Assembly: GCF_020982545.1 (NCBI RefSeq)
Contig: NZ_JAJKLK010000001.1
Coordinates: 682,001-746,000 of the forward strand
Length of the DNA: 64,000 nt
Source of the DNA: Streptomyces sp. MNU76
GTDB taxonomy: Bacteria > Actinomycetota > Actinomycetes > Streptomycetales > Streptomycetaceae
Direction: 5' to 3'
In this document: positions 1,217 to 62,602 of the stretch, piece by piece
How the letters are laid out: each line of letters begins with the position of its first letter
Position numbering within the stretch: position 1 is the stretch's first letter
Notes under the pieces: model-generated
What the model was told of the DNA's origin: nothing
The model's input: only the letters and a program-made list of their open reading frames with translations
Database searches by the model: none
Program-made: the position numbers and the translations under genes

Positions 1217-1640
1217 CTACAGGTCCAGGTCGGCGAAGGGGGCCGCGTGGTCGGAGGCCTGGTTGCGTTTTGAGGTGACTGTGGTGAAGGGCTCGAAGGT
1301 TCTCGGGGCCCAGATGCCCCGGCGTTCCACGCCGACGTGTGCCACGCGGTCCCACAGGTCCGGGCTGAACATGAGGTAGCCGAGCTTCTGTTCGTCGCGT
1401 TTGCCGGTGCCGTGGGTGCCCGGGGGTGCCATAGCTCTCGTGGGTCATGGCCTTGCGCAGGCCCGCGTCGAGGAGGAGCTTGATGGGGGCCTGGTCAGTG
1501 TGTCGTTGAGGTCGCCGGCCACGACGACCCGTGAGGAGCGTTCGAGGGTGGCCTCATGGATCTCCCTGACCCGCTTCCCCTGGGCCTTGCGGCGCTTGTC
1601 GTTCTCGGAGGCCTTTCCGAAGCCCTTGCTCTTGAATTGA
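1217..1640 (-). pseudogene. endonuclease/exonuclease/phosphatase-family remnant (C-terminal part)
   Basis: Reading the minus strand from 1640 gives FKSKGFGKASENDKRR...RVVVAGDLNDT, then in a second frame DQAPIKLLLDAGLRKAMTHESYG, then in a third frame GTHGTGKRDEQKLGYLMFSPDLWDRV...QASDHAAPFADLDL. These are the consecutive motifs of EEP-family nucleases/phosphatases (N-H-F-K-S-K-G, G-D-x-N-D, S-D-H-x-x). At least two frameshifts are needed to join them and no N-terminal half is seen beside them, so the gene is dead. It begins exactly at the right end of a TnpB element, which suggests that insertion disrupted it and decay followed. Confidence 0.75.
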
Positions 1641-3118
1641 CATCCTCCCCCTCCTTGAAGGGGGATTCCAACCCGGGTGGGTTGAGGTTCACGGACGCTC
1701 GACCGCTGGTTGGGCGGTGCCGTCCCTCCGGCACCGGCTGCTCGCCGGGGGCGGGGGATCCCGCCCTGTCCTGCCGCGATGTTGATACTGGCGTTGGTGT
1801 CGGCGTTGCAGGTGAAGCCGCAGGAGGAACAGACGAACCCGGCTTGGCTCTTGCGCGAGTTCTTGTCGATCCACCCACAGGCACTGCACCGCAGAGACGT
1901 GTAGGGGGCGGGAACGTCCTCGACCCGGCCGGGGGCCTTGTGCCCGGTGCGCTGCCGCAGCAGGCCCCAGCCCTGGGCGAGGATGGACCGGTTCAGGCCG
2001 GACTTCTGCGCCACGTGCCTGCCGGGCCGCTCCACGGTTCCCTTCGCGGAGCGGGTCATGTTTCTGATGTTCAGTTTCTCGAACCGGATGAGGCCGTAGG
2101 AGCGGGCGAGCAGGGTGCTGGTCTTCTCGCACCAGTCCTTGCGCCGGTTCGCCTCCCGCGCCCTGAGCCCGGCCACCTTCGCATGCTCGGTCGCTTTGGC
2201 GGGGCTGTCTTTCGGTGCTCGTGCTGCGGGCCGCTGGTGTTTGCGGATCCGGGCGCGTTCCTTGACCGTGAGCTGGGGGCAGTTCAGTGTCCGGCCGTCG
2301 GAGAGGGCGGCGGTGACGGTGACGCCCCGGTCGATGCCGATCACCGTGTCCGTGCCGGGCGCCGGGACCGGGTCGGGGGTGACGGCGAAGGCGATGTGCC
2401 ACTGCCCGTTGCGGAAGGTGACCCTGAACGTCTTGGCGGCGGGCAGTTTCGCGCCCTTGCCCTGGGCGCTGAGGCGGAAGCGGACCCAGCCGCAGCCGGG
2501 CACCTTCACCTGCGCCCACCGCCGGTTGAGTTTCTGCACGACCACCGACCGGCCCATGACCTGCCTGCCGGTCCTCACGTTCACCTTCGGCGACCCGTCC
2601 GCCTCGTATTCCGGCACGCGGTCGGTACCGATGACCCTAGGGGGTGTTTCGAAAGTCCCGCACAGCACCCACGGCGCCCGGCACGCACTCTCGCCGCACC
2701 GGCCGAAACCCCAAGTACGTTCAGTACGAGGGCTTTCGTCCGGCACGCCGAGAGCACGCACCGGACACCGCGGGCACCGCACAGGACTGTCGAAACACCC
2801 CCTAAAACCCTCATGCACATGCTTCCTGCGCCACGTCGGCTCACCGAACCCGGACGTGAACCGGGCACTCTTGGCCCGGGCGAAGTCCTTCAGCGCCTGC
2901 TGCTGCACATCCGCGTTCCCCGCACCCAGCCACGCGTTCTCCCGCCGCGCCTCGGTCAGCTGACGGCACTGCTCCGCGAAACCCGGCGCGGACCTGCGCC
3001 ACCGCCGCCAGTGGGCGTGCTGCTCGACGGCAAGGTTCCACACGTATCTCGCGTGCGCGCAGTGCGTGAGCATCTGCTCGGCCTGTGCGCGCGACGGATA
3101 CATCCGGAAACGAGACAT
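1445..3118 (-). CDS. tnpB: TnpB-type RNA-guided nuclease of an IS200/IS605-like element, interrupted in frame by a MITE
   Basis: 557-codon frame. Residues 1-105 are the N-terminal TnpB region (HTH_OrfB_IS605-like). Residues about 106-160 are encoded by a MITE. The RuvC-like core follows with D262 (GIDRG), E346 (RFEKLNI), a four-cysteine zinc ribbon (C410/C413, C429/C432) and D439 (NADTNAS). Deleting the 163-bp MITE and its TA duplication joins HVHEGF to RVIGTDRV in frame, as in normal TnpB. The natural C-terminus should end near the element's right end at 1637; the last 60 or so residues are read into the flanking endonuclease pseudogene. TnpB proteins of this group are omega-RNA-guided DNA nucleases. 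Whether this one is active with a 55-residue insertion is doubtful. No TnpA is present. Confidence 0.85.
   Translation of the reverse strand: MSRFRMYPSRAQAEQMLTHCAHARYVWNLAVEQHAHWRRWRRSAPGFAEQCRQLTEARRENAWLGAGNADVQQQALKDFARAKSARFTSGFGEPTWRRKHVHEGFRGCFDSPVRCPRCPVRALGVPDESPRTERTWGFGRCGESACRAPWVLCGTFETPPRVIGTDRVPEYEADGSPKVNVRTGRQVMGRSVVVQKLNRRWAQVKVPGCGWVRFRLSAQGKGAKLPAAKTFRVTFRNGQWHIAFAVTPDPVPAPGTDTVIGIDRGVTVTAALSDGRTLNCPQLTVKERARIRKHQRPAARAPKDSPAKATEHAKVAGLRAREANRRKDWCEKTSTLLARSYGLIRFEKLNIRNMTRSAKGTVERPGRHVAQKSGLNRSILAQGWGLLRQRTGHKAPGRVEDVPAPYTSLRCSACGWIDKNSRKSQAGFVCSSCGFTCNADTNASINIAAGQGGIPRPRRAAGAGGTAPPNQRSSVREPQPTRVGIPLQGGGGCQFKSKGFGKASENDKRRKAQGKRVREIHEATLERSSRVVVAGDLNDTLTRPPSSSSSTRACARP
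1637..1674 (-). other. IS605-type right end, predicted 3' part of the omega-RNA scaffold
   Basis: On the minus strand the region forms a short hairpin with five G:C pairs and ends in GATGTCAA. By analogy with characterised TnpB systems, the omega-RNA covers this end and its guide would be the next flanking bases (TTCAAGAGCAAGGGC, just below 1637). This is inferred from the family only. Confidence 0.4.
2640..2802. repeat. 163-bp MITE copy 1, inserted in tnpB
   Basis: Bounded by GGGGGTGTTTCGAAAGTCC and its near-perfect inverse (one mismatch, GGACTGTCGAAACACCCCC), with TA on both sides (2638-2639 and 2803-2804) as the target duplication. The whole element is a long imperfect palindrome around AAGTACGTTCAGTAC. 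It is almost identical to the copy at 60198-60360 and encodes no transposase. The insert plus the TA duplication is 165 bp, a multiple of three with no stop on the minus strand, so it leaves tnpB open. TA targeting fits IS630/Tc1-mariner or TA-duplicating IS5-group transposases. Confidence 0.9.
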
Positions 3119-3264
3119 GCCCCGAACCTAGGCATTTCGTTCCCCTACCGCCCACGACTTCGACCAACATCACCCCTGAGAGTGACCAGCACGCTCTCGC
3201 CTTCCAGAGCAACCCCCGACCACCGGGCCCTAAACCCGCCACCACCAACGGCTCCACGCCGACC

Positions 3265-3561
3265 TCACCGCCGTCCCTCCCGAGACGCCGAATCGCCCCG
3301 GCGTCGATTCGGCCTCCCCTGCCCCGCTACGTGGGAACGGGCATTCACCCCGGACCTGAAGGGCCAGGCGCCCTGCCCAGCGAGCAAGGTGGACACCGTG
3401 TAGAGCTTGGCACCGCCACGGGGCTGGTTGGCGAAGAACGGTCGGCGGCTGCCCGGGTCCGAGTCGTGCGCGCCGTGCTTCACGATCAGCGTGGTGATCC
3501 GTTCCTTGTCCGCCTCCTGGGGCCACGCGGCCGGTGACGGGCTTGACGGGCTGACAGGCAC
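3265..3561 (-). CDS. unidentified short ORF, possibly a gene fragment
   Basis: 98 codons; the middle (ADKERITTLIVKHGAHD followed by SDPGSRRPFFANQPRGGAKLYTVSTL) has the composition of real protein, while the last 40 residues are arginine/glycine-rich and look non-coding. I do not recognise a family. It lies just upstream of the TnpB element on the same strand as the endonuclease pseudogene, so it may be a displaced fragment of another gene. No convincing ribosome binding site is seen. Confidence 0.3.
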   Translation of the reverse strand: MPVSPSSPSPAAWPQEADKERITTLIVKHGAHDSDPGSRRPFFANQPRGGAKLYTVSTLLAGQGAWPFRSGVNARSHVAGQGRPNRRRGDSASREGRR

Positions 3562-4892: not shown

Positions 4893-5071
4893 GCCACGCA
4901 GAACTCGTTGCCCTCCGGGTCGCGCATGACCCACCAGTGGCCCGCCGGGCCCCGGTCGAACTCCTCGACGCGGGTGGCGCCCAGGGTCTCCAGGCGGGTG
5001 GCCAGGGCCTCCAGGCCGTCGGGGCCCGCGTGCACGTCGATGTGGAGGCGGTTCTTGGCCGTCTTGGGCTC
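4889..5071 (-). pseudogene. VOC (glyoxalase-like) gene, 3' fragment at attL
   Basis: Encodes EPKTAKNRLHIDVHAG...VMRDPEGNEFCVA, the C-terminal 60 residues of a VOC-superfamily protein, including the metal-ligand-type HIDV strand and the DPEGNEF motif. It is separated from its N-terminal half (13699-13983) by the 8.6-kb integrated element. Joining the halves at the 9-bp core rebuilds LLFQDVPEPKTAKN in frame, giving a 154-residue protein. Its TGA stop comes from the TnpB relic's right end. Confidence 0.85.
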
Positions 5072-5097
5072 GGGGACTTGTTCGGAAGACGTAACCG
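5069..5097. other. attL: 9-bp core plus right attP arm
   Basis: The core CTCGGGGAC is at 5069-5077. The element-side arm GAAGACGTAACCG at 5085-5097 is the exact inverse of CGGTTACGTCTTC at 13674-13686. The integrase start codon lies only 17 bases beyond the arm. Confidence 0.85.
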
Positions 5098-5113
5098 GGC
5101 GCACGCTGGGGTT

Positions 5114-6622
5114 ATGACTCAATGTGTTGCTTTGTACTGCCGACTGTCCCCCCGCCCCGACGGCAGCTATGAGGGTGTCGACCTCCAAGAGGGGTGGGGC
5201 CGCTCCTACGCCGCGAGCATGTGGCCGGGCATGCCCGTGAAGGTGTTCGCCGACGCTGGTATATCCGCCGCGAACGGCGACCACAGACCCCGCTTCGAAG
5301 AGTTCCGCGCGGCTCTCGCACGCGGGGAAGTCGCCCACGTCTGGGCCGTTGAACAGTCCCGGTTGGAACGGCGTGAGGTCGAGTGGTTCACTCTGGCCGC
5401 AGAGATGGACTCAGCCGGTATCAGTGAGCTGCACACGAACAGGGACGGCGTTGTACGCGTACATGATGAGGTCGCCGGAATCCGCGCGGTACTCAACGCT
5501 GGGGAGGTGCGCAAGATGAAAAAGCGGGTCAACGATCGTCTTGCCGAGAATGCCGCCCAGGGGCGCCCTGCGGGCTCCAAGCCGTTCGGGTACGGCCACG
5601 CTGTCGACGAATCCGGCAACAAGACGTACGTGATCATCCCGGAGCAGGCAGAGGCGATCCGGTGGGCCGCCGAAAAGGTGCTGGACGGTTGGTCGCTCGC
5701 CAACATCGCTGCGGAGTTGCGGGCGCGCGGACTGGTCGGGGCGCACAAGGTGAAAGTCAAGGATGCCAACGGGGAGATCGTGACCGATGCGGCGGGGAAG
5801 CCCGTCACGCGGCCCTCTACGCTCACGGCAAGCTCTGTGCGGTCCATGGTGACCAAGCCGACCATTGCGGGGTTCCGAGTCCATCAGGGCGTGATTGTGG
5901 GCCGTGGAAACTGGGCGCCCATTCTCGATGAGGCAACGTGGCAGGCATGCCGGGCGAAACTGTCGGCGCCGCGCACGGTCCGCACTTCTGACGGCTTCAC
6001 CTACCCGATTACTGACGCGCACAAGGGCAACCGCGCCGGGCGCAAATACACCCTGACCGGTGGCCTGGCAGTGTGCGGCGTATGTGACGCGCCCATGGTC
6101 GGCTCGATGAAGAAACTGAAGAATGGAAAGCGGACGCCGTACCTGTTGTGTCACCCGAATCGGGGAGGTAAGGGCTGCACGGGAATCATGCTGGAAGCCA
6201 CCGAACAGTACGTTGCGGATGAACTGTTCAACTTGCTGGACATGCCGGGATTTCTCGATTCCCTCACGTCTGACGACAATGCCACCCGCCGGGATGAACT
6301 GACCGTCGAACTCACGGCAGTTGAGGCGGAGCGCAACGAAATCGCTGCCGAGCGGGGACGCGGTGAACTGACACTCGCCGAGTGGAAGAACATGCGGGCC
6401 GGTCTGAACGAGCGGGAACAGCGCCTACGGGCCGAACTGACCGCCATACCGGCCCCGGTCGCGACTGTCGACTACAGGGAGGCACGGGGGTCGTGGGAGG
6501 CCATGACGCTGGACGAGAGGCGCGCGCTCCTGCGAGTGTTCATTGAGCGTGTGACGGTCAAGCGCGCCAAGCCGGGGACCAAGGGGTTTGATCAGAACCG
6601 CGTCTTGATCGAATTTCACTAG
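5114..6622 (+). CDS. int: large serine recombinase (integrase)
   Basis: 502 residues from ATG 5114; the frame is open further upstream, but that part overlaps the att site and antisense VOC sequence. The N-terminal resolvase domain begins CVALYCRLSPRPDGS, with the catalytic Ser in the Y-x-R-x-S position. A Recombinase domain follows (GRPAGSKPFGYGH, and AGFRVHQGVIVGRGNWAPILDEATW), then a zinc-ribbon (CGVCDAPM...LCHPNRGGKGC) with a coiled-coil of about 60 residues (TVELTAVEAERNEIAAERGRGEL). It catalyses attP x attB integration at the adjacent site and, with a directionality factor, excision. The gene is intact. Confidence 0.95.
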   Translation: MTQCVALYCRLSPRPDGSYEGVDLQEGWGRSYAASMWPGMPVKVFADAGISAANGDHRPRFEEFRAALARGEVAHVWAVEQSRLERREVEWFTLAAEMDSAGISELHTNRDGVVRVHDEVAGIRAVLNAGEVRKMKKRVNDRLAENAAQGRPAGSKPFGYGHAVDESGNKTYVIIPEQAEAIRWAAEKVLDGWSLANIAAELRARGLVGAHKVKVKDANGEIVTDAAGKPVTRPSTLTASSVRSMVTKPTIAGFRVHQGVIVGRGNWAPILDEATWQACRAKLSAPRTVRTSDGFTYPITDAHKGNRAGRKYTLTGGLAVCGVCDAPMVGSMKKLKNGKRTPYLLCHPNRGGKGCTGIMLEATEQYVADELFNLLDMPGFLDSLTSDDNATRRDELTVELTAVEAERNEIAAERGRGELTLAEWKNMRAGLNEREQRLRAELTAIPAPVATVDYREARGSWEAMTLDERRALLRVFIERVTVKRAKPGTKGFDQNRVLIEFH

Positions 6623-52920: not shown

Positions 52921-53104
52921 AGTCGACCCGCGGACGAACGATAGGCGCCCGGGGGTGGAAGGGGCGCAGCCCCCTGGGGATGGGACGGGTAGGGGCGGCG
53001 GGGGCGAGAAATCCACGTGCCCCACCGCCACCCCTCACCATCAACAACCGCCTCCAGGCCCCCCACCCCCACCTTCCGGCTCCTCCGGCGACGGCTCGAC
53101 GGGC

Positions 53105-53390
53105 TCCTGGACGGGTGGGGCTTCTTCGGCGGGGGTCGACGACGGGTGGGGTCTCTTCGGCGGGGGTTCGACGACGGGTGGGGTCTCTTCGGCGGGGGTT
53201 CGACGACGGGTGGGGCTTCTTCGGCGGGGGTTCGACGACGGGTGGGGCTTCTTCGGCGGGGGTTCGACGACGGGTGGGGTCTCTTCGGCGGGGGTTCGAC
53301 GACGGGTGGGGTCTCCTCGGCAGGCGGTTCCACTACGGGCGGGCTTCCTCCGCAGGCGGTTCCACCACAGGCGGGCCTCCTCTACGGGCG
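53105..53390. repeat. 32-bp minisatellite, about nine units
   Basis: Six near-perfect units (GACGACGGGTGGGGTCTCTT... type) start at 53138, 53170, 53202, 53234, 53266 and 53298, with diverged units on both sides. Because 32 is not a multiple of three, every strand and frame stays open while the encoded peptide changes frame each unit (minus strand: TPAEETPPVVEPPP, then KRPHPSSNPRRRSPTRRR). The underlying peptide seems to be a PAEETPPVVEPP-type linker. Confidence 0.9.
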
Positions 53391-53409
53391 GCTCCACCCC
53401 AGACCCAGC

Positions 53410-53600
53410 CGGCTCCTCGCCCTCAGGTCCGTCAACTCCCGGCTCCTCGCCCTCAGGTCCGTCAACTCCCGGCTCCTCGCCCTCAGGTCCGTCAACTCCC
53501 GGCTCCTCGCCCTCAGGTCCGTCAACTCCCCGGCCTCGCCCTCAGGTCCGTCAACTCCCGGCCTCGCCCTCAGGTCCGCCAACCCCCGGCTCCTGGCCCT
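53410..53600. repeat. 30-bp minisatellite, about six units
   Basis: Perfect 30-bp units (GTCAACTCCCGGCTCCTCGC plus CCTCAGGTCC) at 53431, 53461, 53491, with 29-bp variants after 53521. On the minus strand one frame reads PGVDGPEGEE repeats and another RELTDLRARS repeats. It follows the end of the sigma factor frame at 53600 and may once have been its C-terminal tail. Confidence 0.9.
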
Positions 53601-54778
53601 CAGATCCCTCGCCCCCGGCGATTCAGGCGCCCGTACCTCCAGCCCGCCCCCTCCTCGCCGGAGCCCACGCCCCCACGGCCGCCACCCGCACCCTCCCCAC
53701 GAGGCGAGACCACCACATCCGTCACCGCTCCCCGGTGCTCGACGACATCGGGAGACGCCACCTCGGGCCGATGCGGCGCGGGCGCCTGCGCGACCGGCAC
53801 CCGCCGCTCGGGCCCTGCCCCCGAGTCGAGGGGCCCGAGCACGATGCCGGCCACAACCGCGGCGGCGGCCGCGGCCGCACCGACCGCCGCGACGGTGGGC
53901 ACCTTCACCCCACCCGCGCCACTCGCCGCCTGCCGCACGGCGTGCAGCACCTGGCCACCCCCGTGCCCACCCGCGGAGCCGAGCACCGCGGCCGTACCGG
54001 CGGAGCCACCCGTGAGGGCCATCAGCAGCTTGCCCCCACCTCCTCCCACGACGAACACCAGCAGGGCGGGACCGACGAACGCGGGCAGCCGGTCGTTCGT
54101 GCGCATCAGCACGGCGAGCCGCGCCCGGCAGTCGTCGCACGCGTCCACATGGCTGAGCAGTTGCTCGGACTGCCGCGCGGTCGCCGTACCGCGCACATAC
54201 GCCGGCATGCGCCCCCAACGCACCTGGCACGCCGGATCGATCGGCGCACCGGGCTGCTCGCGCAGGAACGCCTGGCGCATCCCCTCGCGCGCCCGGTGCA
54301 GCAGCACCGCCGTCGCGCCCTGCTTCGCGCCGATGCGCTGCCCGACCGTCTCCAGCGGCTGGCCCTCCGCCTCGGCCAGCCACAACGCCTGCACCCACCG
54401 CTCCGGCAGCTGGCCCAGGACCCGCACCAACAGATCGACGGAGGAGACCTGTTCGGCGGGGTCGGTGGCGTCGGCCACCCGGACGTCGGCCTCGGCCCGC
54501 TCGGGAGCCGTCGGATCCAGCGGTGTCTCCCGCGTCGCGGTGGAGCCCACGGCCGCCGCGAGATGCCGCACCGTCGTCATCAGATACGCGGGCACGTTGT
54601 CGATCTCGTGCCCTCCGGAGAGCCGCCGCCACACGCGGAAGTGCGCCTCGGCGACGAGGTCCTCGGCGGTCCAGGAGTTCCGGGTGAGGGAGCGCGCGTA
54701 CGCGACCAGGCGCGGATGCTGTTCCTCGTAGATGCGGGTGTACGCGGCGGTCGCGGACCCGGACAGGCCGTCGGTCAT
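53600..54778 (-). CDS. sigma-70-family factor fused to an anti-sigma-like zinc-finger/TM domain
   Basis: 392 residues. Region 2 (about 13-80: YTRIYEEQHPRLVAYARSLTRNSWTAEDLVAEAHFRVWRRL) and region 4 (about 118-170: LGQLPERWVQALWLAEAEGQPLETVGQRIGAKQGATAVLLHRAREGMRQAF) make an ECF-like sigma factor. It is fused to a zf-HC2-type motif (ARQSEQLLSHVDACDDCRARLAVL), a hydrophobic segment (FVGPALLVFVVGGGGGKLLMAL) and a second one (VAAVGAAAAAAAVVAGIVLGPL). Such fusions give a membrane-held, self-controlled regulator. A TGA ends the frame just before two minisatellites that look like a former extracellular Pro/Glu-rich tail. Confidence 0.85.
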   Translation of the reverse strand: MTDGLSGSATAAYTRIYEEQHPRLVAYARSLTRNSWTAEDLVAEAHFRVWRRLSGGHEIDNVPAYLMTTVRHLAAAVGSTATRETPLDPTAPERAEADVRVADATDPAEQVSSVDLLVRVLGQLPERWVQALWLAEAEGQPLETVGQRIGAKQGATAVLLHRAREGMRQAFLREQPGAPIDPACQVRWGRMPAYVRGTATARQSEQLLSHVDACDDCRARLAVLMRTNDRLPAFVGPALLVFVVGGGGGKLLMALTGGSAGTAAVLGSAGGHGGGQVLHAVRQAASGAGGVKVPTVAAVGAAAAAAAVVAGIVLGPLDSGAGPERRVPVAQAPAPHRPEVASPDVVEHRGAVTDVVVSPRGEGAGGGRGGVGSGEEGAGWRYGRLNRRGRGI

Positions 54779-58768: not shown

Positions 58769-60194
58769 TAGGGCTCCGTTACGTCTGTCTGTCGGTCCTG
58801 TTTGGGGGAACGCTGAAGGTGTGGACGCACATGAAGTGAACCGTGCTCGGGCGACGTTGGCGTTATTCGTCGCTGACGTGTTCGCGTCGGTGCCGCGCAA
58901 GGATCAGCGGGCGAAGGGCGACTGCTACCTGCGGGGATTGATGCTGGACGGACGGCGGAAGTCGATCCAGCCGATGGCGGAACGGCTGCCCGACGGCAAC
59001 GAGCAGAACCTGCAGCAGTTCGTGAACCAGTCGACGTGGGATCCGGTGCCGGTGCGGCGGCGGATCGCCCAGCGGATGGTGCCGAGAATCGGCCCGGAGG
59101 CGTGGGCGGTCGATGACGTGTCGTTCCCCAAGGACGGGAAGATGTCGGTGGCGGTCGCGCGCCAGTACTGCGGGGCGCTGGGCAAGCGGGCCAACTGCCA
59201 GGTCGCGGTGAGTGTGCACGCGGTCTCCGACACCGCGTCCTGTCCGCTGCAGTGGCGGATGTTCGTGCCCGAGGAGTGGGCGGACGATGCGGTGCGGCGG
59301 CAGAAGACCGGGATACCGCAGGAGGTCGGGCACCGGGAGAAGTGGCGTCTGGCCCTGGACATCCTCGACGAGCTGGCCGGGTGGGGTCTGGTGCCGCCGG
59401 TGCTGGTCGCCGACGCCGGCTACGGGCAGAACGCCGACTTCCGCGACGGTCTGAGCGAGCGGGGCATCGGCTATGTCGTGGCGGTCCGTTCGGACGTGAC
59501 GGTCCACCCGCACGACGTGCGGCCCACCGCCCCGGCCTGGTCCGGGAACGGTCGCAGGCCGCAGCCCCGCTACCGGGACAAGCCGTCCTCGGTGGCAGCG
59601 CTGGCTCAGGAGCACGGACGGCAGGCGTTCACCGAGGTGACCTGGCGTGAAGGCTCCCGCGGGCCGATGCACTCACGCTTTCTGGCGCTGCGGGTGCGGC
59701 CCGGGGTGAGGGCCCGCCGTCTGGCCCAAGCCGCCGCCACTGCCGAGCACGGCCACTGGGACGGTGTCCTGCCCGAGGTGACGCTGCTGGTCGAATGGCC
59801 CCAGGACGCCGAAGCACCCACCGACTACTGGCTGTCCAACCTGCCCGCCGACACACCGATCACCGAACTGGTCCGCCTGTCCAAGATCCGCTGGCGCATC
59901 GAGCACGATTACCGGGAACTCAAGCACGGCCTCGGCCTGGACCACTTCGAGGGCCGCTCCTGGAACGGCTGGCACCACCACGTCACCCTGGTCACCGCCG
60001 CCCACGCCTTCCTCACCGAACAGCGCCTGTCCCCAAAAGCCGATACAGCGGACTCACCCTCTACCAGATCCTCGACGCCATCCAGGACCTGCTGAACTGC
60101 TGGACCGGCACCTGCACCACCTGCCACCGCCCGCTGCCCAGAACATCCACCACCAGCCAGAACCCAAGAGCCAGAGCAACCTAACGGAGCCCTA
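58769..60194 (+). mobile_element. IS701-family insertion sequence (1426 bp)
   Basis: 13-bp perfect terminal inverted repeats TAGGGCTCCGTTA (58769-58781) and TAACGGAGCCCTA (60182-60194), flanked by CTAG on both sides (58765-58768, 60195-60198), the YTAR-type 4-bp duplication of IS701 elements. It carries one transposase gene. The right CTAG duplicate ends on the first G of a MITE, so this IS was the last to arrive. Confidence 0.92.
58821..60184 (+). CDS. IS701-family DDE transposase; full length needs a -1 frameshift at 60032-60038
   Basis: The zero frame runs from GTG 58821 to 60095 (424 aa). Catalytic region: AWAVDDVSFPK (D98/D99), VLVADAGYGQN (D198) and IEHDYRELKHGLGLDHFEGRSW (Glu near 361-366). 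After AFLTEQRLSPK the zero frame turns into Ser/Thr-rich nonsense. The -1 frame continues with SRYSGLTLYQILDAIQDLLNCWTGTCTTCHRPLP and ends at TAA 60182-60184, inside the terminal repeat, as is usual for IS genes. The switch point CCCAAAA is in the correct X-XXY-YYZ phase for -1 slippage. Trans-frame product 454 aa. The alternative is a simple indel. Confidence 0.88.
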
Positions 60195-60197
60195 CTA

Positions 60198-60360
60198 GGG
60201 GGTGTTTCGAAAGTCCCGCACAGCACCCGCGGCGCCCGGCACGCACTCTCGCCGCACCGGCCGAGACCCCAAGTACGTCCAGTACGAGGGCTTTCGTCCG
60301 GCACGCCGAGAGCACGCACCGGACACCGCGGGCACCGCACAGGACTTTCGAAACACCCCC
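60198..60360. repeat. 163-bp MITE copy 2, at the alpha-galactosidase stop codon
   Basis: Same length, orientation and near-identical sequence as 2640-2802, with perfect 19-bp ends (GGGGGTGTTTCGAAAGTCC; GGACTTTCGAAACACCCCC). TA flanks at 60196-60197 and 60361-60362. The insertion falls in the TAG stop of the galactosidase and restores it with the MITE's first G. Confidence 0.9.
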
Positions 60361-62602
60361 TAGCTCCTCACCGGGGTCAGCCTCAGCAACACGACCGAGG
60401 GCGCCTCCGGCAGGCTCACCCGCAGCTCGGCGCCGTGCCACCGAGCCGTGGCCGTCGTCGCCCTCGGATGCAGGACCTCCACCCGTACGTCCCCCGCGCC
60501 CCCGCCAGGTGGCGTGAAGCACCGTGCGGTGTCCCCTCCCCGGCGCCAGACCGTCACGTACACCGGACCCGCGTCCGGCACCGGCGGTCTCAGACCCAGC
60601 GCGACCCAGTCGTCCGACCAGCCCGGCAGGCCCAGGGGCCAGAACGGCAGGGCGGTGCGCAGATCGCCGCGGATCGCCTTGTACGTGTCCAAGGCGTCAC
60701 GCACCAGATCGAGTTGACGATCTGTCATGTGGTCCAGGTGGCCGGAGAGATGGACCCGGCCGAGGAGCGCGGAACCGAGCGTGAAGGCGATCTCCTCGTC
60801 CGTGCAGGACGGTTGCGGGTACGCCCAGACCGCGCCCTGCTCCGGCGGCACGGCGGTGGGGGCGGAGGCGGCGATCGGCGGACAGCGCAGGGGATCCTGC
60901 TGGTCGGAGGTGGACTGGAGCTGGGCCACCGCGAGGGAGGCGCCGTCCATGCGCATACCGCCCGAGGCGCAGTTCTCGATGACCAGGCCGGGGTGACGGT
61001 CCAGGACCGAGGACAGCCAGGCGAGCCAGGCCCGGGAGTGGGCGAGGTGGGCCGGTGCGGAGGTGGTGATGTTGTAGTCGAGTTTGAGGTAGCCGACGCC
61101 CCACTCGTCGACGAGACGGTCGACCGTCCCGTCCAGATGGGCGCGGGCCGCCGGGTGGGTCAGGTCCAGCTGGTGCCGGCCCTGTTCGGTGACCCGGGTG
61201 CCGTCCTCGTGCCGGAGGAAGGCCTCGGCGGGCAGACCGGCGGCGAGTGGACTGCGGACCCCGACGACCTCGGGCTCCAGCCACAGCCCCGGCACCATGC
61301 CGCGCTCCCGGATCCGGTCGAGCACACCCCGGATACCACGGTCGCCGGGGAACCGTCGGACCGACGGCAACCAGGCCCCCACACTGTCCCACCAGCCCCG
61401 GGCGAACCATCACCCTCTCCGCTCTGTCCGCTCCCCCCGGCCTCTCCCCTCTCTCCGTCGTCGTACCACCCGGCGTCCACGCAGAAGTACGCCGCGCCCA
61501 CCTCCGCCGCCGCGTCGATCAGCGGGAGCAGTTTCTCGGTGGTCGGCTCGCCCATGAGGGTGTTCATGTAGTCGTTGAAGATCACCGGCAGTCGGGTGTG
61601 GTCCGGGTGAGGGCGGCGTACGACGCGGCGGTAGGAGGTCAGCGCGGCCAGGGCGCCGTCGAAGCGGTCGCCGAGGGCGAGGGCGGCCCACTCGGTGGTG
61701 AACTCGGCACCGGGCGCCAGGACTTGGCGCCACTGGTGTTCGTCGTGGGTGGGGCCGCCGAGGGCCAGATACGTCTGCCCCGCCGACTCGCCGGCCTCCC
61801 AGACCCAGCTGGACGCCGACTCGATCTGCCACAGCCAGCAACGGTCGTCCGTACGGTGCTGGAGCGCGCCCATCGCGAGATGCCCGTCCGTGGGCCAGCT
61901 GCCGCGTCCGGCGAGCCGGGCCGCCGCGTGCCCGGTGGCGCCGTGCACCTGGTGGTTGACGTCGGGGACGGAGTTCCGCAGCGGCTCGGTGTACCAACGG
62001 CACTCCGCGAGCCAGTCGTTGCGCGCGCGGAGGACGGACAGGTCGTCGGGGGAGGGAAGTCCGCCGAGGAGCAGGCTGCCGAGGGAGCGTACGGTGACCG
62101 ACCCGGAGCCGTCGTTGCGTAGCCGGACGCGGGAGCGCAGTACGGAGATGCCGTCCGGTGAGGCGTACTCCACGAAAGTGGTCAACCCGGTCGCCGGGTC
62201 GTGGAGTTCGAAGGTCAGCCGATGCCACCGCACGCGGTCACCCGAACCACCAGCCGAACCACCAGCCGAATCACCCTGCTCCGCAGCCGCGTTGTCGGGC
62301 CCGGGATCGCAAGTGGAGTGATGGGCACGGTACTTCAGACGGGCGCCGATCGCCGTGCCGGTGAAGCGGGGTCTGGCCCAGCCGGTGCCGTCGCCGAGCA
62401 GGACCAGGTCGACCAGGGGCGGCGAGGGGGTCGCCTTGGTCTCCTCGGGGCCGGGCGCGGGGTCGTCGGGGCGACGGACGCGCAGCAGCCGGGGAGTGTC
62501 TCCGCTGAGGTCGAAGTCGGCGGTCAGCGCGGAGTGGCCCCAACGGTAGGAGAGGCTCCACGGGAACGCGTCGGTCCACTGGTGACGGTCGTGCTGCGAC
62601 AT
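60360..62602 (-). CDS. alpha-galactosidase, GH36, frameshifted
   Basis: Start ATG 62602 with GGGGGGAT upstream. The N-terminal beta-sandwich (WSLSYRWGHSALTADFDLSGDTPRLLRV, FVEYASPDGISVLRSRVRLRNDG) and barrel start (LPVIFNDYMNTLMGEPTTEKLLPLIDAAAEVGAAYFCVDAGWYDDG) are in one frame. From RGWWDSVGAWLPSVRRFPGDRGI onward the barrel continues in another frame, with VGYLKLDYNITT (nucleophile Asp), VIENCASGGMRMD and STSDQQDP (acid/base Asp region). The two are joined by a frameshift near 61385-61450, beside a run of six C. The TAG stop is made from the TA target duplication and the MITE end. It hydrolyses alpha-galactosides if the frameshift is not real. Confidence 0.82.

Follow-up and report, generated by a model that had tools for sequence, protein, structure and literature searches.

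RUP of Streptococcus pneumoniae is a small MITE of the IS630 type that uses a TA target and reaches high copy numbers. Among transposons of the Tc1-mariner type, IS630 and ISY100 duplicate a TA dinucleotide (PMC2170065), and a preference of IS630 for CTAG is stated in the title of a paper by Tenzen and Ohtsubo (1991) cited in the same article. Other short elements have been described by their relationship to host genes. Rickettsia palindromic elements (RPEs) are repeats of about 150 bp that can be translated in frame within a host protein, and nearly half of the RPEs of R. conorii are inserted into open reading frames (ORFs) (PMC10969869). QMITE1 and QMITE2 of Coxiella burnetii form stable hairpins, provide the stop codon of genes whose 3′ ends they overlap by a few bases, and include some in-frame insertions (PMC5896051). 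MITEPsy1 of Pseudomonas syringae targets CTAG or YTAA (PMC3189936).

Here, we analyzed a stretch of 64,000 nucleotides (the window) from Streptomyces sp. MNU76 that carries two copies of a MITE, one of them inside a tnpB gene. The sister copies of this element reveal a superfamily of CTAG-targeting, stop-rebuilding MITEs.

A MITE in frame within tnpB

Copy 1 of the element, which belongs to what we designate family A, lies within tnpB as follows.

1445..3118, minus strand: ORF holding the interrupted tnpB, with Pfam matches HTH_OrfB_IS605, OrfB_IS605 and Cas12f1-like_TNB
2805-3118, then the insert, then 2637 down to about 1660, minus strand: N-terminal part of tnpB, insert and C-terminal part
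2640..2802, plus strand: MITE family A copy 1, 163 bp, starting with GGGGG and ending with CCCCC
2638..2639: left TA of the target duplication of copy 1 (target CTAA, versus the usual CTAG)
2803..2804: right TA of the target duplication of copy 1
2671..2771, minus strand: conserved 101-nt hairpin core, position transferred from L002:1534-1634

Copy 1 has inverted arms and terminal inverted repeats, and the Pfam matches of the ORF all fall outside it, leaving no transposase domain in the element. An earlier note had called it a MITE, and its many copies, TA duplication and terminal inverted repeats bear this out; the element is a non-autonomous MITE of the IS630/Tc1-mariner type. As that note also stated, the 163 bp and the 2-bp TA together add 165 bp, or 55 codons without a stop, in frame after residue 105 of TnpB. 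Its statement that RuvC is kept holds as well: the OrfB_IS605 domain, the zinc ribbon and the RuvC motifs are all retained in the insert-bearing gene. The RuvC and zinc-ribbon motifs have catalytic roles in TnpB. The structure predicted for the insert-bearing protein with 30 homologues was useless as a model, at a mean pLDDT of 38.

We compared the gene with its homologues in a scan of named genomes that gave 121 stretches encoding a relative. Among the best 80 of these, none carries the insert; in 79, EGFR runs straight into [VIG][VI]G, and the remaining one has QGFRVIG. A tnpB paralogue in the same genome, 92% identical and with an open frame of 436 codons, is likewise uninterrupted. These uninterrupted loci and the paralogue prove that the insertion into tnpB is real. 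The insert parts F105 from R161, two residues that are invariant in 31 aligned sequences. The Phe-Arg codons at the insertion site contain TA in only 2 of the 80 sequences with Phe-Arg there (81 read); because TA is so rare at this site, a pre-insertion sequence TTTTAGG would need silent changes relative to most homologues, or else an unusual insertion. As a gauge of relaxed constraint on the interrupted gene, the changes assigned to each lineage, in small counts and with 14 codons unassigned, comprise 12 synonymous and 11 non-synonymous changes in the interrupted tnpB and 14 and 5, respectively, in the paralogue.

At the end of the tnpB element, the frame lacks a stop of its own and continues into flanking DNA (window 1445-1660), which from a motif we take to read like an endonuclease/exonuclease/phosphatase-type gene. 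A large serine recombinase with Resolvase, Recombinase and zinc-ribbon domains is encoded near the tnpB element (window 4937-6622).

The second copy in the window has a different setting.

60198..60360, plus strand: MITE family A copy 2 (locus L029), 98% identical to copy 1, target CTAG
60196-60197 and 60361-60362: TA duplication of copy 2
60360..61382, minus strand: melibiase-like gene; copy 2 rebuilds its TAG stop (60360-60362)
58821..60095, plus strand: DDE_5 transposase gene

Copy 2 had been credited with the same open minus-strand frame as copy 1, and the element was proposed to be selected for translatability in this orientation. The two copies do share their open frames, but the minus strand is not special: four of the six frames are open in both copies, and because these lie on both strands, neither orientation is favored. 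The remaining two frames are closed in both copies by TA and the first G of the element, which together read TAG. Read-through of the insert in tnpB follows from its length of 3n-2 together with the four open frames, of six, in the element. Copy 2, on the other hand, is not read through from its neighbor; it sits on the rebuilt stop of the melibiase-like gene, in which TA comes from the duplication and G from the copy, and is one of 18 family A copies on a predicted TAG stop. The insertion sequence of the DDE_5 gene, whose transposase we take to be IS701-like, abuts copy 2 at the same CTAG with its end CCCTAC. Elsewhere in the window, two direct-repeat arrays with spacings of 32 and about 30 bases lie next to each other (53099-53645).

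CTAG targets and stop codons

By BLAST, family A occurs in at least 40 places in its own genome. TA stands on both sides of 34 of the 38 copies that were aligned (the other 4 are irregular), and 16 of the 38 equal the consensus exactly. We analyzed the 34 regular copies, 31 of which are 163 bp long, and left out the 6 of 40 that are irregular or truncated. A strict two-ended pattern finds 26 copies in this genome and, across 392 genomes of the genus, a single copy in each of 2 others; because such copies are nearly confined to this genome, the family A burst looks recent and local. Looser matches, with two candidates scored per genome, occur in 278 of the 392. Solitary family A ends that run into unrelated sequence were seen at L041 1498 and L044 2004, with no exact partner end in the 3.5 kb around.

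CTAG is the target of 31 of the 34 regular copies, whereas in 864 kb of the genome only 174 of 9146 TA dinucleotides lie in CTAG. The tetranucleotide is itself 13-fold rarer than expected from base composition over these 864 kb (174 observed versus 2297 expected). The first base is G and the last base is C in all 34 regular family A copies and in all 43 superfamily elements. With the TA duplication, such ends recreate CTAG at both junctions (C-TA-[G...C]-TA-G), and because CTAG is palindromic, a TAG stop is rebuilt whichever strand or orientation is involved. Clusters at CTAG, in which a family A MITE lies beside a 99-bp family B-type element, an IS630 or IS701-like ends, were observed at L008, L186, L190, L025 and window 60190-60362. 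Every insertion at CTAG turns one such site into two. The clusters are in line with this doubling and look as if the restored CTAG of each insertion were reused.

To place the copies relative to genes, we used a home-made codon-model caller trained on this genome, which was applied to the other genomes too, and compared them with background CTAG sites, a set that leaves out sites at MITE ends or near stretch ends. Of the 34 family A copies, 18 coincide exactly with a predicted TAG stop, 15 are intergenic and 1 is inside a gene; for the 142 background sites, the corresponding counts are 27, 94 and 21 (stops, p=1.3e-4 by Fisher's test). The sole copy inside a predicted gene is the one in tnpB, with its CTAA target. 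With other thresholds, an earlier classification had put 16 of the 34 copies on stops, and likewise 28 of 147 background sites; another gave 18 of 34 and 29 of 142, called no site inside a gene and missed the tnpB copy. In each of the 18 stop cases, TAG directly follows the final sense codon in the inserted sequence. A Pfam match was obtained for 17 of the 18 proteins concerned, and the genes, some of them of housekeeping type, include those for a phosphofructokinase, a class II tRNA synthetase, a 6-phosphogluconolactonase-type protein and a sigma-70 factor (regions 1.2 to 4).

This pattern could be the work of the transposase alone, with CTAG sites merely happening to lie at gene ends and no selection afterwards. 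The strong depletion of CTAG and its use by nearly all copies are in keeping with this, but stops are commoner among the copies than among background CTAG sites even when intragenic sites are set aside (stop:intergenic 18:15 versus 27:94, p=9e-4). A wider target signal could rescue the idea and may exist beyond CTAG; what is seen is a mild over-representation of A/T two to four bases outside the target in family A relative to background CTAG, partly because neighboring insertion sequences share ends. We give targeting without selection some weight as a minority explanation.

Related elements repeat the pattern. Family B, with members of 210 and 148 bp and the ends GGGCGTGTTTCGG, contributes 18 clean copies, 12 of 30 loci having been left out as irregular or truncated. 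Six of the clean copies are on stops and 1 is inside a gene; for this family alone, stop enrichment is not significant (p=0.21). Among relatives in other genomes, where 12 of 29 loci were not usable, 12 of 17 clean-ended copies are on stops and none are inside genes, and at L056 the overlapping stops of two convergent genes are both rebuilt. Five further genomes contain elements with different terminal repeats, of which 20 of 29 clean-ended copies are on stops and 0 were counted inside genes (11 of 40 loci were not usable, including both of a sixth genome). One of these 20, L369 (target GTAG), was counted as a stop yet also falls within the final codons of a predicted gene that overlaps there. 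In the pool, in which a locus present in two sets (L335 = L073) counts once, 55 of 97 copies are on stops versus 27 of 142 background sites (p=2.8e-9) and 2 of 97 are inside genes versus 21 of 142 (p=6.5e-4). The own-genome test is the cleaner one, because the pool sets copies from several genomes against the CTAG sites of one genome.

These counts bear on the proposal that the MITE is selected as an open, frame-preserving insert able to live in proteins, like the palindromic elements of Rickettsia. Some of its features suit such a life. Of 43 superfamily elements, 34 have a length that gives a multiple of 3 when 2 is added, as does the prevailing 163-bp form of family A. The CTAG-recreating geometry means that an intragenic CTAG is met in only two phases per strand, and these four frames are open in 33 of 34 family A copies, in 25 of 43 superfamily elements, and in B210 and the 148- and 199-bp forms; the extra stops of several close variants fall in a frame that is already closed. 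All four frames stay open in only 4.1% of dinucleotide shuffles of the family A consensus and in 0.5% for B210.

Each of these points has a counterpart. The divisible lengths arise mostly because 163 and 175 bp recur, and 9 of the 43 superfamily elements do not fit; lengths that fail are 210 bp (family B), 173-174, 162 and 99 bp. Lengths of 3n-2 are compatible with a frame constraint but are not proof of one. The family A copies with all four frames open are near-identical, and 18 of the 43 superfamily elements have a stop in the relevant frames. Of permutations of the family A consensus that preserve the palindrome, 10% have no stop in any of the four frames, and the elements are related and so non-independent; given these permutation and shuffle rates, open frames alone are weak evidence. 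Insertion phase is indeed not uniform, but the commonest phase is one that the element closes, at stops, where it recreates TAG. Copies counted inside predicted genes amount to 1 of 34 regular family A copies and 2 of 97 pooled, and with so few copies in genes, read-through would offer selection little material. A weak frame constraint may exist; as the main force it is unlikely, and we regard selection for life within proteins as quite improbable. What does stand from the earlier note is that insertions are made less harmful, in that the copies seem placed to do little harm; this is better explained by CTAG targeting with stop rebuilding than by translatability.

Very probably, then, the element is an IS630/Tc1-mariner-type MITE that inserts at the TA within CTAG and whose ends rebuild CTAG and, with it, stop codons, the tnpB copy being a rare hit. 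Insertion at CTAG restores CTAG at both junctions through the G-first and C-last ends; where the target is the TAG stop of a gene, the stop is rebuilt in place and the protein left unchanged. The distribution would combine transposase preference for the rare CTAG with purifying selection against harmful sites, and the tnpB copy would have struck a CTAA variant inside another mobile gene. A rare target and target-rebuilding ends would give a transposon a route to multiply in a gene-dense, GC-rich genome at little harm, with stop codons, even two overlapping stops of convergent genes, surviving the insertions.

A hairpin core shared across the genus

A core of about 100 nt is common to same-genus elements with different terminal repeats. 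For the family A consensus, the folding energy is -146.6 kcal/mol on one strand versus -95.2 kcal/mol on the other; from this folding of the consensus, the better-folding RNA strand of copy 1 is the minus strand, which is the coding strand of tnpB. On the better-folding strand, the non-Watson-Crick mirror pairs of the consensus comprise 15 G-T, 0 A-C and 7 other pairs. Across 27 non-redundant elements, the 43 pairs predicted in the core make up 1161 cells, of which 907 are Watson-Crick, 242 G-U, 0 A-C and 12 other, so that 99.0% are paired. Fourteen pair columns alternate between G-U and Watson-Crick and none contains A-C, and 8 core pairs have changed at both of their positions; none of 500 shuffles attained as many. 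Two A-C/C-A cells occur in six symmetric column pairs lying beyond the predicted ones. Once the 48 elements are oriented by the core, the better fold falls on the same strand in every one of them, although 2 (148 and 99 bp) were oriented by short matches only. These elements are related, the structure was derived from the same sequences, and the element search required core similarity.

A class-wide sample of 296 lists 28 genomes of the same genus, and a covariance model of the core has matches in 17 of these; outside the genus, it gave three weak matches (E 4e-4 to 5e-4). Divergent elements found with this model were excluded from the one-strand evidence because the model selects for one-strand folding. 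In one divergent family, G218, the G-U asymmetry is absent from the five elements folded (4, 4, 4, 4 and 6 versus 3, 4, 4, 6 and 4). A search of window 1400-3300 against Rfam 15 returned two matches, both far below the gathering score, and no known structured RNA.

G-U pairing without A-C suggests selection at the RNA level. We tentatively propose, as a reading that we would not yet favor over its opposite, that the core is a selected structured RNA, read from one strand and shared across the genus by elements with different IS630-type ends. If so, wobble pairing would keep a near-perfect RNA hairpin while the DNA arms, in copy 1, are only about 74% complementary. Some nucleases cleave palindromes, and imperfect DNA arms perhaps escape them. 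With its stop-rebuilding ends, the element would then be a mobile 3′-untranslated-region cassette that adds an RNA hairpin and leaves the protein untouched, and the core would be a widespread mobile RNA hairpin at gene 3′ ends that is unlisted in Rfam.

Such a hairpin might be useful to the host, for example as a terminator or a stabilizer of mRNA 3′ ends between convergent genes, and copies at gene ends might be kept for this reason. Consistent with this idea, the fold is very stable, and 14 of 34 family A copies lie between convergent genes versus 13 of 142 background sites (p=2.9e-5), or 14 of 32 versus 13 of 112 when sites with an unknown neighbor are removed (p=1.5e-4). The better-folding strand is also oriented 6:0 relative to the gene in family B. 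However, this orientation is 9:9 in family A, which lends no support to a cis role in host mRNA, and 7:6 in the genus sample, and we consider retention for a useful hairpin unlikely. Stop rebuilding at CTAG remains the preferred account of the copies at gene ends.

The transposase and known systems

Movement of family A would depend on an IS630-type transposase acting in trans, whose gene may lie in an assembly gap. PF13358 has 27 IS630-type matches in this genome. A search of its assembly (37 contigs) found no intact autonomous element with the family A repeat; such a partner would be expected to have GGGGGTGTTTCGAAAGTC ends. L042/L292 joins a family A end (25 to 28 bp alignable) to the truncated start of an IS630 transposase, a full-length relative of which carries DDE_3.

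L042 1498-1720: chimaera of a family A terminal repeat and an IS630 transposase start

Among the relatives listed, most instead have the end GTGCTCTGACC or a close variant of it, and IS630 elements may therefore trade their terminal repeats. We also considered a resident 1254-bp IS630 with nine copies, likewise at CTAG in the copies inspected; it was rejected as the partner on account of its ends, which differ from those of family A.

A literature search that covered few subscription journals found no stop-rebuilding CTAG MITE and no such core. Neither the combination of CTAG targeting with stop rebuilding nor the proposed one-strand RNA core was met in the literature searched. RUP resembles the present MITE in its small size, TA target and high copy number.

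IS630 and ISY100 share with our element the TA duplication, and IS630 also the CTAG preference, whereas the MITE is without a transposase; stop rebuilding by G-first and C-last ends is not among the features that we found described in PMC2170065. MITEPsy1, which is listed as "IS5?", is 100 bp long and makes a 4-bp duplication, giving a frameshift in genes (PMC3189936), while the MITE described here keeps the frame. QMITE1 and QMITE2 differ in having direct repeats of variable sequence, and their supply of stops is listed gene by gene (PMC5896051). In contrast to the RPEs of R. conorii, nearly half of which are in ORFs, only 2 of 97 copies here are inside genes. As far as these sources describe them, in-frame MITE fusions (PMC10969869), MITEs that supply stops (PMC5896051) and the CTAG preference of IS630 (by a title cited in PMC2170065) are each known separately; in the superfamily described here, a CTAG preference is joined to ends that rebuild the stop.
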